From a virus: a stretch of DNA of 64,000 bases. Below, in pieces: positions 18,257-52,420 of this stretch (the first letter of the stretch is position 1; every line of letters begins with the position of its first letter). The notes under the pieces were generated by a model that was not told the DNA's origin, did not search any database, and saw only the letters and a list, made by a program, of their open reading frames with translations. A program made the position numbers and the translations under genes. The DNA lies in IMG/VR virus record IMGVR_UViG_3300040807_001288, positions 1 through 64,000 of that record, one strand, 5' to 3'.

Positions 18257-19000
18257 ATGCTGAACAATCAAGTAAATGATCCTGCCAAGCAGGAGGTCAT
18301 CGAAGACCTTTTAAAAGATCTTCCTTCAGATACCGCTATAGAGTTGGAGCTTCCCTCAGAAAACAGAGTGTACGCTTTGGAAGATCCAGGGGCACCTATA
18401 ACCCTAAGGCCCATGACCTTCGAGGATGAAAAAGCTTTAGTGAGTGCTAAGAAGACTGAGGATCCCGTCAACATGATTTTACAGAGGTGTGCCACTAATG
18501 TAAAAATTCCAGACCTCCTCTCAATGGATAAGCTCTACATGATCATGAAGCTTAGAGAAATCTCCTACGGAGATGACTACAACACTCTGCTAGTCTGCAC
18601 TCATTGCAAGGCGGAAAACCCTACAACGGTAAAGCTCTCCACGCTCAACATAAATCCAGTTCCTGACGATTTTGCAGACCCAGTAACTGTCATGTTGCCC
18701 ACTTTGAAGAAGGAAGCAAAGGTGAGATTGCCTAGAGTTAGAGATGAGCGAATGATGTCGGATACCGAGACTGCTTTAGATCAGCTATGGAGATTCGTGG
18801 TCGAGATCGCTGGTCATACTGACAAGTCCATCATTGCCCCTGTAATAGACAAGCTGCCCCTAAAGGATGTCAGAACTATCCTAAACGCTATTAAGAGCGA
18901 CTACGGCGTTGATACTAAGGTCAAGTTCCAGTGCAACGAATGCGGAGGGGTGTCTATTGTAGACCTACCAATAGATGCAAATTTTTTCGATGTGAACTAG
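18257..19000 (+). CDS. 26: Baseplate hub protein gp26 (zero-frame product)
   Basis: A 247-residue protein of the T4-type baseplate hub assembly family. It has a zinc-ribbon-like pair of C-x-x-C knuckles, C-T-H-C (about residue 115) and C-N-E-C-G-G (about 227). The segment I-T-L-R-P-M-T-F-E-D-E-K-A-L near residue 45 is typical. The last codons run over a T6 tract, and a frameshift signal there would replace the final three residues with a 63-residue extension. T4 has gene 51 next to 26, and the extension occupies that position. A clear AGGAG ribosome binding site precedes the ATG. Confidence 0.8.
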   Translation: MLNNQVNDPAKQEVIEDLLKDLPSDTAIELELPSENRVYALEDPGAPITLRPMTFEDEKALVSAKKTEDPVNMILQRCATNVKIPDLLSMDKLYMIMKLREISYGDDYNTLLVCTHCKAENPTTVKLSTLNINPVPDDFADPVTVMLPTLKKEAKVRLPRVRDERMMSDTETALDQLWRFVVEIAGHTDKSIIAPVIDKLPLKDVRTILNAIKSDYGVDTKVKFQCNECGGVSIVDLPIDANFFDVN

Positions 19001-19033
19001 AAGAAGTAATTGATGTAGACAATCTTCTTCTAG
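18982..19033 (+). promoter_or_regulatory. Programmed -1 ribosomal frameshift signal
   Basis: The heptamer T-TTT-TTC (18982-18988) is in the exact phase needed for tandem -1 slippage in gene 26. An overlapping A-AAT-TTT heptamer precedes it. Eight bases later a perfect 10-bp stem begins: CTAGAAGAAG (18997-19006) pairs with CTTCTTCTAG (19024-19033) around a 17-base loop. The zero-frame stop TAG lies at 18998-19000, inside the first arm. The -1 frame stays open to 19179. Confidence 0.75.
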
Positions 19034-19179
19034 AAGCCTATATACTTGTAAAACGAGCTAGGTTCACTTATGCGGATGTAAAGGGTATGACTCGCATGGA
19101 GAGGACCATATTCATAAAACTTCTTAAAGAGGACTTGGAGAGAGAAAGCGATGCAATTAAACGGAACTCAGGTAGTTGA
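18988..19179 (+). CDS. gp26 -1 frame extension (gp51 position)
   Basis: This is the part of the -1 frame that adds 63 residues to the first 244 of gp26, giving a 307-residue product. The added piece begins R-C-E-L-E-E-V-I-D-V-D-N and is strongly helical (L-L-L-E-A-Y-I-L-V-K-R-A-R; M-T-R-M-E-R-T-I-F-I-K-L-L). Between the gene 26 stop and the ATG at 19087 there is no ATG, GTG or TTG in this frame. The upstream ATGs at 18931 and 18940 lack ribosome binding sites. By analogy with lambda gpG/gpGT, short and long forms may be made in a fixed ratio. The link to T4 gp51 rests on position only. Confidence 0.65.
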   Translation, partial: RCELEEVIDVDNLLLEAYILVKRARFTYADVKGMTRMERTIFIKLLKEDLERESDAIKRNSGS

Positions 19180-20104
19180 TAGGCATAACAGACCCACTGT
19201 GATTCAGAAGGTCGCCCTGAGGGCGTTCTTCATCAATGATGGTCAGTATTACGACCCTTATGACATTAGTGGTGTAACTATTTTTCAAAAGGCTTCTAAC
19301 TTTACGCCGAGTAGCCTTCTAGCAACTGATAACGTACTAGTTTCTAGTATACCTGGGGACATCATCCAGATGCACTTCACTCCGTCAGGGAACGATGGAG
19401 GTACTCCTGCTCAGGATCCTAGTGGCTATAACCCAGGGACTGACATTAGATCAACCAGCGGTGTCTATCGAGTACAACAAGGGGAGTATATGGTCGTTCT
19501 TGATGGGACTCAAGACACCTCAGGAATCTATAACTTCTATGGATCCTCGCTAGTTGTGGAAAATGCGGCGAGCGCGGTAAACGATTACATCGACTGCTGG
19601 ACCATCAAATTTGCAGAAGGCTCAGACTATCAGACATTAATCAGTGATTTCCATCTGTACGATGACACGTTCTTCACGATAACTCAGCCACTACTTCTCA
19701 AGACAAGGAACAAGTTACTGAACAAACATGTTACCCTAAGTTCTATAGAGAACATGACCGTCACCACTGAGATCACTATTCAAAACAAAGACATAGATAG
19801 CAGCGTGAAGAACATTTTTAAGGACTCCGCTATCACTAGTGCAATGATGCAAATAGAGAAGGTCAACGAGGATTCCACCACACTTCCAGCCACAGTGGTA
19901 GTTTCTAGCTTCGCTGATACTCAGTCCGTTATGGACATAACTTCAGACAATACAATATTATTTAGATTCGACACGACAACCTTGGCAACACATCCCAGAG
20001 TCGCAGACTTTGGAGGACTTACTGGAACTTACAGGGCAACCGTAAAGTATAACCTGCTCAACGAGAGCATCATATCGCCCCCTTACTATTTCACAATAAG
20101 CTAA
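19151..20104 (+). CDS. Unknown virion or tail protein, 317 aa
   Basis: A 317-residue beta-rich protein with many Thr, Ser, Val and Tyr residues and no membrane segment. Its ATG has an upstream GGAGAGAGAAAGCG tract and overlaps the frameshifted gp26 product by 29 bases, tying it to the hub operon. The family is not recognised; the composition is that of a structural tail component. Its end overlaps the convergent primase gene by 14 bases with no terminator between them. Confidence 0.55.
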   Translation: MQLNGTQVVDRHNRPTVIQKVALRAFFINDGQYYDPYDISGVTIFQKASNFTPSSLLATDNVLVSSIPGDIIQMHFTPSGNDGGTPAQDPSGYNPGTDIRSTSGVYRVQQGEYMVVLDGTQDTSGIYNFYGSSLVVENAASAVNDYIDCWTIKFAEGSDYQTLISDFHLYDDTFFTITQPLLLKTRNKLLNKHVTLSSIENMTVTTEITIQNKDIDSSVKNIFKDSAITSAMMQIEKVNEDSTTLPATVVVSSFADTQSVMDITSDNTILFRFDTTTLATHPRVADFGGLTGTYRATVKYNLLNESIISPPYYFTIS

Positions 20105-22224: not shown

Positions 22225-22611
22225 ATGGGACAATTTTCAAAAGGAATTCAGAATTTTTTAGCTCAAGTCGGAGCAGACGAGAACAGAAGTGTGTCTAAGG
22301 TTCCTAAGAGCGACTCTTGTGCAAAGGTTGGTGAAGTCGTGTTCTTCAGGTACAAGTTAGGAACAGGTAAGGGCAGCAGATCATTCAGGATAGTTCTAAT
22401 GACAGAGCCTATCACCAGAGACGCTAAAACGGGTAACAAATTGTTAACTGGATTCAAGGTTCCTGAGGATGGTGAATATACCCCAGATTCTTTAGAAACT
22501 CTATATAACAATAAAGAACTTCCTGAGCCAGAGTTCAGAACATACATAATGTCTAATATTTTTGGATCTCTGTATAAGGTAGTTAAATTAGACTCCAAGG
22601 ATCAAGAATAA
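22225..22611 (+). CDS. Unknown protein before the tape measure, 128 aa
   Basis: A 128-residue basic, soluble protein with a small beta-barrel look (V-G-E-V-V-F-F-R-Y-K-L-G; S-R-S-F-R-I-V-L-M-T). The family is not recognised. It is the first gene of the 27-kb tail/baseplate operon and its stop shares a base with the ATG of the tape-measure gene (TAATG). A chaperone or small tail component is plausible by position only. Confidence 0.5.
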   Translation: MGQFSKGIQNFLAQVGADENRSVSKVPKSDSCAKVGEVVFFRYKLGTGKGSRSFRIVLMTEPITRDAKTGNKLLTGFKVPEDGEYTPDSLETLYNNKELPEPEFRTYIMSNIFGSLYKVVKLDSKDQE

Positions 22612-24395
22612 TGGTATTAACTGATGTTGCAATAGGTGGGCTAACCAAGGCTATGGATACGCTCACCAGCCAGCTTAGGGAGGCTATGGGCTTTGCAGAA
22701 AATGCTCAGAGAGCGTCATTAGCTCTAGGTACGACCTTTGAAAGCACCAACTCACAACTTGGTGGGACCATGGAGGGTCTTCGTGGAGATATTACGCAAA
22801 AGTTTGGAGCAGCTATTGCGGGGATGGAAGCGGGTTTACAAGGTAATACTGCTGGCGTAGCCAAGTTAATAAACCAGCAGCAACTTACTAATACTAACTC
22901 GGCTAAGACTGCGGCTGCTTTTGCGGGCCTAGAGGCGTCTCTAGGAACCTCCAGACAACAGACCAATGAGCTTTCAGAAAGCTTAATTCAGACAGGCGCT
23001 GAGTACCAGATAAGCACAGACAAGCTGGTAGACGCCATAGATGCCCTAAAATCTACGTTCCCAGCACAGGCGTTAGCTGGAATGGGTGATAAGGTTATGG
23101 GAGCCGTGACGATGCTACAGGGGGAGCTAGGCCCTCAGTTGGCAGGACCTCTAAACAACGTCATGAAGATGGTTATGGATACAAGCATGGAAGGCTACGA
23201 AAGGTTGACCAAGCTTGGAATCTCGGATGTTAGAGAAAGATTAGCCGCAGCAAAGGACGCTGCTGACGCACAACAAATACTTAAGGATGCTTTTGTCACT
23301 GCTTCGGATAGGTTTAAAAGCGTGGCAGGTGACGCCAGCGATGGATTCTTCAAAATAGGGGTTGCATCTGAGATCTTTGGAGAGCAGACGATTCAACTAA
23401 CCACCGTAGCAGACAATTTAGGGAAGAGAGTAAAGCAAGAGATAGATGATTCCGTTGATTTTGGGAATACACTAGCAAACTTAAAAAATGAGATTCTAAC
23501 ACCCTTAACGGAGGCTCTAGCTAAGTTTTATCCAATTATATTGAAGTCTTTTGACGCCTTGTCTTTAGTTGCTAGACGGGTGGTAGAAAGGTTTTCAGTC
23601 TTTCTTGAAGGCACTCTACCCAAAGCGGATAAAGTGTTTCAGATGGTTACCTTAAAGCTAGTTGAATTTGCTATCACAGGACTGAACGCTTTTGATAAAT
23701 TAAGAAAGCGAGTGCTGTTGGTAGTTGAAGATGTTTGGCCTAAACTTACAGAGTCCTTGATGTCTGCCAAAGAGGCTTTTCATTATGCAATAATTATTCC
23801 ACTAGAACTAGTTAAGATAACTTTTACTTCTTTTGTGAATGGTTTAGATACAGCGTATGGAGCAGTCCTTCTTTTGATAAAAGGATTCTACATCGCAACA
23901 GAAAAACTGACATTTGGAGCCCTCACTTTTACGGATGAGATGGACTTCGTTAATGATCAGTTAGAGGGGGTCGGACAAAGAATGCTCGACCGTGCAGAAG
24001 ATGTGAAAAAAAGTATTTCCACCATAACGCAGGACCCTGCTGAATCGGCAAGACAATTTTCTGAAAAACTTAGAGAGATAAATGAGGATCCTAATTTACT
24101 TGGCAATAAGTATCTTTCTGATATTAAGGATAGCTTGTTAAAAGGAGAGGAGCTACAAAGAAAAACCAGTAAGAGCGTAGCTAGTGTAGATGAAAAAACT
24201 CCAGAGCCTGAGACTAAATCAGCTTTTGTCGATGAGTCCACGATAATCCTCAGCCAAGCCCTAGAGACTATGTTAGGTGTGGGTCAGAATACGACTGCTG
24301 AGGAGATGTTAGAGGAGCTTAGAGTTGCTAATATGCAGCGAGCACAACAGGAAACAGGCGGGGCACTGGCTTACCAAAGAGGAGGGTTAGACTAA
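22611..24395 (+). CDS. 29: Tail tape measure / baseplate hub protein gp29
   Basis: A 594-residue protein, essentially the length of T4 gp29 (590), which sets tail tube length and forms part of the hub. The N-terminal 300 residues are Ala/Gly/Gln-rich helices. Residues about 395-445 form hydrophobic segments (H-Y-A-I-I-I-P-L-E-L-V-K-I; A-V-L-L-L-I-K-G-F-Y-I-A), as in tape measures that insert into the host membrane. The C-terminus is charged. Position directly before gp48/54-like and gp53 genes fits the T4 order 29-48-54. Confidence 0.75.
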   Translation: MVLTDVAIGGLTKAMDTLTSQLREAMGFAENAQRASLALGTTFESTNSQLGGTMEGLRGDITQKFGAAIAGMEAGLQGNTAGVAKLINQQQLTNTNSAKTAAAFAGLEASLGTSRQQTNELSESLIQTGAEYQISTDKLVDAIDALKSTFPAQALAGMGDKVMGAVTMLQGELGPQLAGPLNNVMKMVMDTSMEGYERLTKLGISDVRERLAAAKDAADAQQILKDAFVTASDRFKSVAGDASDGFFKIGVASEIFGEQTIQLTTVADNLGKRVKQEIDDSVDFGNTLANLKNEILTPLTEALAKFYPIILKSFDALSLVARRVVERFSVFLEGTLPKADKVFQMVTLKLVEFAITGLNAFDKLRKRVLLVVEDVWPKLTESLMSAKEAFHYAIIIPLELVKITFTSFVNGLDTAYGAVLLLIKGFYIATEKLTFGALTFTDEMDFVNDQLEGVGQRMLDRAEDVKKSISTITQDPAESARQFSEKLREINEDPNLLGNKYLSDIKDSLLKGEELQRKTSKSVASVDEKTPEPETKSAFVDESTIILSQALETMLGVGQNTTAEEMLEELRVANMQRAQQETGGALAYQRGGLD

Positions 24396-50238: not shown

Positions 50239-50654
50239 AACTAACTGAAGCTATTGACGGTATTGAAGAAGCGAAGGGTTCTAAGGAGGGTCGAAAGACA
50301 TATACCTCCAAGAAAGGGACCACTCGCGATGTCAAAAAATCTGTCAAGAGTCGAGTTAGAGTTTTCCCTAGCATCAAAGCTGCGCTTGCTAACGCGAACT
50401 ATGGACAAATCTTCAGCACGAAAGCTGCCGGAAGATTGTATGTAGTTTCTAAGGGTAAGTGGGGAGCCAAGAGTGGTCGAGGAAAGATCGCGAAAGGCTT
50501 CACCAAGGGTAGCGCAACTCCATCCGCAGAGTGGGGTAGCGTCAAAAAACATGCTGCGCGTACCATGCTTCGGCATGGCAAGGCTTCTGATAAACTGGCT
50601 CAAAAGTATGGCAGTCGATCTATCAAGAAAGAAAGAGGATTAAAGTACAAATGA
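50235..50654 (+). CDS. Basic internal head protein-like, 139 aa
   Basis: A 139-residue, strongly basic protein. It begins M-K-L-T-E-A-I-D-G-I-E-E then A-K-G, where I-E-E before Ala (and L-T-E before Ala) match the gp21 rule at the same N-terminal place as T4 capsid-targeting peptides. The remainder is Lys/Arg/Gly/Ser-rich and suited to DNA contact. It sits directly before and is coupled to the protease gene. I infer an internal or core protein trimmed in the prohead. Confidence 0.55.
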   Translation: MKLTEAIDGIEEAKGSKEGRKTYTSKKGTTRDVKKSVKSRVRVFPSIKAALANANYGQIFSTKAAGRLYVVSKGKWGAKSGRGKIAKGFTKGSATPSAEWGSVKKHAARTMLRHGKASDKLAQKYGSRSIKKERGLKYK

Positions 50655-52420
50655 CACAACTACTCCAAGACGTATTTATTGTAGAGAACCTTCAAGTTCT
50701 TACTGAAGGAAAAAATAATGACACCATGAAAATTAAGGGTGTCTTTGGCCGTTGCAATGAAAAGAACAATAATGGTCGCATCTATCCTACAGCGGTTCTA
50801 GAAGGTCAGTTGAATAAAGTTCAGCCTCTTATCTTAGAGCGTCGGCTTTGTGGGGAGCTAGATCACCCTCAGAACGATACTGTTAAGTTATCAAACGCCT
50901 CACACCTAATCACTAAACTTGAAATGAAAGGTAACGAGCTTATTGGTGAGGCCGAAATTCTTAAGACTCCTGCTGGACTAACTGCTAAAGCATTGGTTGA
51001 GGGTGGAGTAAAGATTGGTATCTCTTCTAGAGGTATGGGTACGCTATCGGAGGATGATAAAGGAGACAAGATTGTTAATGAGGACTTCCGCCTAGTAACT
51101 TTCGACCTTGTAGCTGACCCCTCTACTCGTGGAGCTTTCCCTGGACTTTCAGAGTCTACAGAGTCTCAGTTTGTTCGTGAGAGCCAGACAAAGTTAGAGA
51201 AAGAGCAAAACTTTGTAACACTTCTTCAATCTAAGCTTAGAGAGTCCTACGATCCTTGGATTGAAGAGGCTAAGACAAAGAAGAAGAAGAAGAGTGCCTT
51301 GGATCCTGTAGGTCAGGAAGATGGTGATGTTGATAACGACGGTGATACAGATTCCAGCGATGCCTATCTTGCAAAGCGTAGAAAAGCTATTGGTAAGGCT
51401 ATGAAAGCTGAGGGTACTTATTATCGCTTGGGTAACCTAATTGCTGAAGCTTTTGCTGATGAGTTAGAGAGAACTAGGGTTTCTAAAGCTGACGCAGAAG
51501 GAGATACTAAAGGCCCATCCTTTATGGACAGACGGCGCGTAGCTGCTGGTAAAAAATCTGCTGCGCGGGCTGATGTAAAGGCTGCTAAAATTAGACAAAG
51601 TGGTGAAATTAGTCTAGCTCGTAGAATGGAAAAAGCTAAAGAGCGGGCCGCTGCTGGTAAGCCAGTAACAGGTGGTGAAAGGGCTGCTGATCTAGCAAAG
51701 AAGGCGTGGGGCACGGCGAAGAAACTCGGAGGAGCAGCTAAAGATTATGTTACAGATAAGGAGAGCGAAGCAGCAAAGGCCGCAAAAAGTAGACTAGCCG
51801 ATAGAAGGAAAAAGAGGATTTCGGATCGCCTATCAGGTGCTTCTTCAACCAAGCCAACCCCTGAGCAGGGCAAAGGCGAAACCCCAAAGAAAAAATCAAT
51901 TTCTCCTGAGGAGAAAGCTGCTAAAGAAAAAGCAGGTAGGGCGAAAATGGCTGCTGACACTGCCGATGTTAAGCGTAGAGCGGGTAACAAATCTGCAACC
52001 TCAGCAAGCATGGGTAGAGAAGGTTCTTTCGGTGCTGGTGTAGGTGCTAAATCTTCGGAAGATGAAGCTTCTCGCGAAGCCACTAGGAGGGCTATCGCGC
52101 GACGAGAGCGCAAGACTGGCAAAAAGGTCAAGCTTACTCCGCAACAAGCAGCGCAATTAGAAAGAAAGCTTTATCGTCAGATTGGTTTCCATCTAGCTGA
52201 AGCTATGGGTCTTACTGAGATGCAGGTCGGACATACTGATGTCTCCAATGCTGAAAAAAAAGCCCGAAAGACAGCCAATAACAATAAACAAGAGGGCAAG
52301 CCAGCAAAAACTCCCATGCAGATTACCAAACAAGCTGGTAGAGTTCACGATAAAGTTACCGCAAGACAGAAGGAGGGTAAAACACCTCCAGGGATTAACA
52401 GTCACAGACAGCCTAAGTGA
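50651..52420 (+). CDS. 21: Prohead protease gp21 fused to basic tail
   Basis: A 589-residue protein. Residues 1-190 are the T4-type prohead serine protease: N-N-G-R-I-Y-P (40-46), G-E-L-D-H-P with catalytic His72, G-I-S-S-R-G (123-128) with the catalytic Ser, and D-L-V-A-D-P-S (152-158). T4 gp21 stops at 212 residues. Here ~390 more follow: an I-E-E/A site (204-207), a dockerin-like calcium loop (226-237), and two Y-x-x-x-G-type motifs ending I-A-E/A (266) and L-A-E/A (517), set in Lys/Arg/Ala-rich sequence. The tail probably is internal-protein cargo released by the protease itself. Confidence 0.88.
   Translation: MTQLLQDVFIVENLQVLTEGKNNDTMKIKGVFGRCNEKNNNGRIYPTAVLEGQLNKVQPLILERRLCGELDHPQNDTVKLSNASHLITKLEMKGNELIGEAEILKTPAGLTAKALVEGGVKIGISSRGMGTLSEDDKGDKIVNEDFRLVTFDLVADPSTRGAFPGLSESTESQFVRESQTKLEKEQNFVTLLQSKLRESYDPWIEEAKTKKKKKSALDPVGQEDGDVDNDGDTDSSDAYLAKRRKAIGKAMKAEGTYYRLGNLIAEAFADELERTRVSKADAEGDTKGPSFMDRRRVAAGKKSAARADVKAAKIRQSGEISLARRMEKAKERAAAGKPVTGGERAADLAKKAWGTAKKLGGAAKDYVTDKESEAAKAAKSRLADRRKKRISDRLSGASSTKPTPEQGKGETPKKKSISPEEKAAKEKAGRAKMAADTADVKRRAGNKSATSASMGREGSFGAGVGAKSSEDEASREATRRAIARRERKTGKKVKLTPQQAAQLERKLYRQIGFHLAEAMGLTEMQVGHTDVSNAEKKARKTANNNKQEGKPAKTPMQITKQAGRVHDKVTARQKEGKTPPGINSHRQPK

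Follow-up and report, generated by a model that had tools for sequence, protein, structure and literature searches.

A conserved −1 frameshift signal at the end of a gp26-type gene predicts paired tail assembly chaperones in a marine T4-like myovirus

The gp26 locus and its overlapping reading frame

The window analyzed here is a 64,000-nt stretch of viral DNA (IMG/VR record IMGVR_UViG_3300040807_001288, positions 1 to 64,000). A homolog of T4 gp26, the short form or TAC-N, lies on its plus strand at 18257-19000 and encodes 247 amino acids with two CxxC pairs, ending in the codons GCA AAT TTT TTC GAT GTG AAC TAG. Within these last codons is the heptamer T_TTT_TTC (18982-18988, plus strand), read from the gp26 frame in the classical X_XXY_YYZ phase and placed 16 nt ahead of the TAG stop (18998-19000). 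The heptamer is followed on the same strand by a spacer of 8 nt (18989-18996) and a stem of 10 perfect pairs, whose 5′ arm CTAGAAGAAG (18997-19006) includes the stop codon and whose 3′ arm CTTCTTCTAG (19024-19033) closes a 17-nt loop (19007-19023).

A −1 slip on T_TTT_TTC would yield ANFFRCELEEVIDVDNLLLEAYILVK... and lead into an extension (TAC-C, FFRCELEEV...; 18982-19179, plus strand) that stays open for 63 codons past the two Phe codons, until a TGA at 19177-19179. The predicted long form has 307 amino acids, comprising residues 1-242 of the short form and the extension. The sole ATG, GTG, or TTG codons in the −1 frame are GTG at 18931 and ATG at 18940, both within gp26 and 5′ of the heptamer, and then ATG at 19087 or later, which is too deep in the extension domain to serve as a start. 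The next gene on the plus strand (19151-20104), to which no function is assigned, begins within the end of the extension. Direct reading thus bears out what a sequence-only reading of this DNA had described: a heptamer in the correct phase, an eight-base spacer, and a −1 frame open for 63 further codons that has no usable start of its own.

Conservation and selection among relatives

Scanning IMG/VR with the short form recovered 65 relatives at 100% to 36% identity, giving 66 loci with the window included. The heptamer occurs in the gp26 frame at every one of them, as T_TTT_TTC in 52 and as T_TTT_TTT in 14, and the −1 frame is open for about 60 codons at all 66. The distance from heptamer to stop is 16 nt at 61 of the 66 loci. 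In 46 of the 66 loci, the −1 frame contains no ATG, GTG, or TTG between the preceding stop and a point 45 nt beyond the heptamer start. Of the observations that the sequence-only reading had held to be at odds with a frameshift, loss of the heptamer in relatives with the frames still open was found nowhere, and most close relatives lack a separate downstream start.

The extension is under purifying selection, with a median dN/dS of 0.17-0.22, compared with 0.14 for the short form. Over the same stretch, the zero frame carries at least five stops and the +1 frame at least three.

RNA-level constraint after the slip site

Observed codon identity was compared with expectation over 35 representatives, which are interrelated, so that the counts below are not fully independent. 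Excess identity is −0.02 to 0.03 in the body of gp26, rises to 0.21-0.28 between the slip site and codon +21 inclusive, falls to 0.009 in codons +26 to +45, and reaches a second peak of 0.18 at the end of the extension, where the next gene begins. At the slip site itself, the Asn that precedes it is always AAT (27/27) and the first Phe always TTT (35/35); the second Phe codon is free. Codons +19 to +21 are GCC TAT ATA in nearly all representatives, and the constrained RNA, which runs beyond the 10-bp stem to 19044, ends in a synonymously frozen segment, GAAGCCTATATA (19033-19044, plus strand; GAA 29/29, GCC 30/33, TAT 33/35, ATA 32/32).

The 10-bp stem with its 17-base loop is present as the sequence-only reading had described it, but as a conserved stimulator it does not hold up. 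The stem is perfect in close relatives, and distant relatives have other hairpins or none. No covariation beyond shuffles was found for it, RNAalifold returned no consensus structure after the slip site, and no positionally fixed helix was common to the 34 representatives searched. Folding energy after the slip site is nevertheless lower than that of synonymous shuffles (mean z of −1.06, compared with −0.15 in control stretches; Wilcoxon p = 0.002). A putative stimulatory RNA element after the slip site is supported, and the 10-bp stem is rejected as its conserved form.

The last nine nucleotides of the frozen segment, GCCTATATA (19036-19044), are almost invariant at synonymous sites across the 35 lineages. 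Searches for a pairing partner or a promoter role for GCCTATATA found neither; a repeated promoter was rejected in view of its single exact copy within the window. A long-range helix between GAAGCC and a GGAGGTTTC-like sequence, some 33 nt 5′ of the heptamer end, pairs well in a few loci, but its position is not kept among 34 representatives, and this candidate was also rejected. A G-rich, Shine-Dalgarno-like GGAGGG stretch lies about 35 nt 5′ of the heptamer (18941-18952 in the window and at homologous positions elsewhere), with GGG used in 15 of 15 cases where that Gly occurs; it probably lies too far 5′ to affect the slip site.

Identity of the short and long forms

The short form matches the Pfam family T4_baseplate (PF12322) with E = 3.6e-17 and 63.2 bits, against a gathering cut-off of 24.5, and phrog_150 with E = 2.4e-23. 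The extension has a weak match to phrog_634, 'baseplate hub assembly catalyst' (E = 0.0011), and aligns by hhalign with the C-terminus of T4 gp51 over 45 columns (probability 91.6, E = 8.3e-7). T4 gp51 itself consists of a PF12322 protein (residues 1-201) and about 45 further residues, and in T4 the extension occurs only fused to a gp26 domain, so that the whole frameshift product, rather than the extension alone, corresponds to gp51. The sequence-only reading had assigned the function of T4 gene 51 to the long form; the homology of the extension to the gp51 C-terminus agrees with this, but the extension does not by itself equal T4 gp51. That reading had also spoken of a T4-type hub gene, and here the gp26 homology stands, while 'hub' is an old name for what has the anatomy of a tail assembly chaperone pair: a gp26-type short form with a gp51-tail extension therefore points to short and long tail assembly chaperones from one gene. 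A 2010 review of T4 tail assembly counts both gp26 and gp51 among the chaperones of hub assembly, and gp51 as absent from the particle (PMC3004832).

An AlphaFold2 model of the short form (pLDDT 88) matches other phage gp26-type proteins. Searches of solved structures by sequence and by fold gave nothing significant; with the model, no PDB entry matched at E ≤ 0.001, the best TAC-like entry being 3klu (YqbN, a TAC-family protein; E = 3.6, not significant).

In phages SP-15, LIS04, and immuto, the gp26-family gene sits between the tail tube and tape measure genes, which is the usual position of a tail assembly chaperone gene. In the window, no tape measure gene directly follows the gp26/extension gene. 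A 594-aa ORF at 22611-24395, 3.4 kb downstream and with no library match, is a candidate tape measure protein; its length is near that of T4 gp29 and it lies upstream of other baseplate genes. Elsewhere in the window, a 589-aa protein (50651-52420) has an N-terminal T4-type head maturation protease (phrog_207) followed by a weak cytidyltransferase match (phrog_764), and is possibly a protease-cytidyltransferase fusion.

Comparison with known frameshifted chaperones

T4 gp26 and gp51 share with the window the PF12322 short form, the gp51 C-terminal extension, and a long form made of a gp26-like domain and this extension, but in T4 they are two divergently oriented genes with no slip site, whereas the window has one gene with a −1 overlap. 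The gpG/gpGT pair of lambda and E/E+E′ of P2 likewise use overlapping frames and a slippery heptamer to make a short form and a rarer −1 long form. No sequence relation between these proteins and those of the window was found, the lambda heptamer differs from T_TTT_TTC, and, in contrast to these systems, the window gene does not adjoin a recognized tape measure gene. In the TAC of Pseudomonas phage Adele and of Vandenendeviridae and Andersonviridae, TAC-N ends with a poly-T slip (GTTTTT), and the −1 frame is open and lacks its own start, as inferred from conservation (PMC12846349); this TAC belongs to a different family.

The sequence-only reading knew of no frameshift described at a T4-type gene of this kind, but there is precedent for one. 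T4-like tail assembly chaperones were named by Vladimirov, Gautam and Davidson (2022, Virology 566:9), as cited in PMC10885494 and PMC12846349. As that work is credited by others, the PRFect paper attributes to it T4-like phages with a short chaperone gene and a fused long gene, made with no frameshift (PMC10885494), and the Adele paper attributes to it slip sequences of the poly-T kind in the TAC-N genes of T4-like phages (PMC12846349). On these attributions, the principle was already known; what the window adds is a further clade, strong conservation evidence, and a codon-level map of the signal.

The wider PF12322 family

Representative PF12322 genes of other groups, including cyanophages, a pelagiphage, jumbo phages, and a Schizotequatrovirus, were examined singly; the P-SSM4 stretches examined had no annotated gp26, and P-RSM4 and HTVC008M were used in their place. 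Both a T_TTT_TTN slip and a −1 extension were seen in the huge phage LR756511, XacN1, RAS14, PA5oct, Atu_ph07, 121Q, CBB, Vibrio 2.275.O, Kyanoviridae C48C1, P-RSM4, HTVC008M, phiM12, phi-ST2, and ACP17, with 7 to 70 nt between heptamer and stop among the wider-family representatives. In P-RSM4, HTVC008M, and C48C1, T_TTT_TT(C/T) lies 7-10 nt ahead of the gp26 stop and the −1 extension ends in the same motif as in the window, but in the deposited records all or part of the extension is entered as a gene of its own. More generally, where the annotation of cyanophage-type and related phages sets gp51 apart as a gene (L170:2277-2381, L171:1923-2105, L172:1953-2090, L173:1914-2075, and L174:2019-2186), that gene is a fragment of a −1 extension whose open frame reaches back to the T_TTT_TT(C/T) of gp26.

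Such records bear on the possibility that the extension is a small gp51 in its own right, translated from an internal start or after re-initiation at the stop of gp26. Small separate gp51 genes are annotated in cyanophage, phiM12, and phi-ST2 records, some of which have an ATG at or just past the gp26 stop. Against this, the 46 loci described above offer no start in the −1 frame before the heptamer or close to it, HTVC008M has none before +53 and C48C1 none before +77, and the T4 extension exists solely as a fusion. Re-initiation, moreover, requires neither an invariant T6 nor a frame open back to it, and we consider a separately initiated gp51 very unlikely.

Slippage of the polymerase at the T run, rather than of the ribosome, is less probable still as the source of the second frame. 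The element is indeed a T run, lengthened to T7 or T8 in some relatives, but at 52 of the 66 loci it is only T6 followed by C. Six T residues are short for polymerase slippage. The heptamer phase is also kept, and synonymous constraint runs about 50 nt downstream, which is explained by ribosomal stimulators and not by polymerase slippage. A single gene split by a sequencing or assembly error, for which the homopolymer at the junction might speak, is in practice refuted, as the same frame change recurs in a further 65 contigs and in many genomes of named isolates, and the inspected relatives never fuse the frames without a shift, except in the full-length gp51 paralog.

In a further set of phages, namely SP-15, LIS04, GXN1, LR756508, Mel-JY01, and immuto, a comparable extension at the 3′ end of the PF12322 gene occupies the +1 (or −2) frame (loci L070, L069, L075, L073, L163, and L164). 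The likely slip point is CCCGATT or a near match in SP-15, LIS04, and GXN1, and TTTGGCCT in Mel-JY01 and immuto; in Slickus01, the +1 extension is short and doubtful. Gene 26 of T4, Aeromonas phage 31, phiP4-3, and PhT2 has no heptamer, and these phages have a separate long gp51; T4 gene 26 retains the two Phe residues as TTC TTT. The absence of the heptamer together with a separate long gp51 is a correlation among these phages that may reflect a second gene having taken over from the frameshift in the T4 branch.

A broader reading, offered tentatively and rated somewhat below an even chance as a whole, is that single-gene chaperones made by frameshifting are ancestral across PF12322, that a sister set (SP-15, LIS04, GXN1, Mel-JY01, and immuto) switched to +1, and that the T4 26/51 pair is derived and freed the slip site. 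It would further hold that the small gp51 of cyanophages is the tail of a frameshift product, and that slippage in the window clade is stimulated not by the simple stem but by an unusual element, about 65 nt long, with the almost invariant GCCTATATA at its end.

Proposed mechanism and significance

Judged from comparative sequence evidence, one gene very probably encodes both tail assembly chaperones of this marine T4-like myovirus by way of a −1 frameshift. The short and long gp26 forms that the sequence-only reading had proposed are supported to this extent by the heptamer and open frame at all 66 loci. Most ribosomes would terminate at the TAG at 18998-19000 and release the 247-aa short form, the equivalent of T4 gp26. 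Slippage is taken to occur at an efficiency that lets a minority shift −1 on T_TTT_TTC and produce the predicted 307-aa long form (TAC-NC), whose gp26-like domain and roughly 60 further residues would make it the equivalent of T4 gp51. By analogy with lambda gpG/gpGT, from which the chaperone role and its partners are presumed, the short form would coat the tape measure protein, to which the long form, the rarer of the two, would carry tail tube subunits. Neither form is expected in the virion.

These results tie T4 genes 26 and 51, which are old and poorly understood, to the frameshifted chaperones of the lambda type. What annotations of cyanophage-type genomes list as small gp51 genes are probably not genes in their own right, and the conserved RNA stretch after the slip site is marked as a putative stimulator that can be assayed directly. 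As there are relatives that keep the 26/51 pair as one frameshifted gene, the order of events, frameshift first and duplication afterward, becomes testable.
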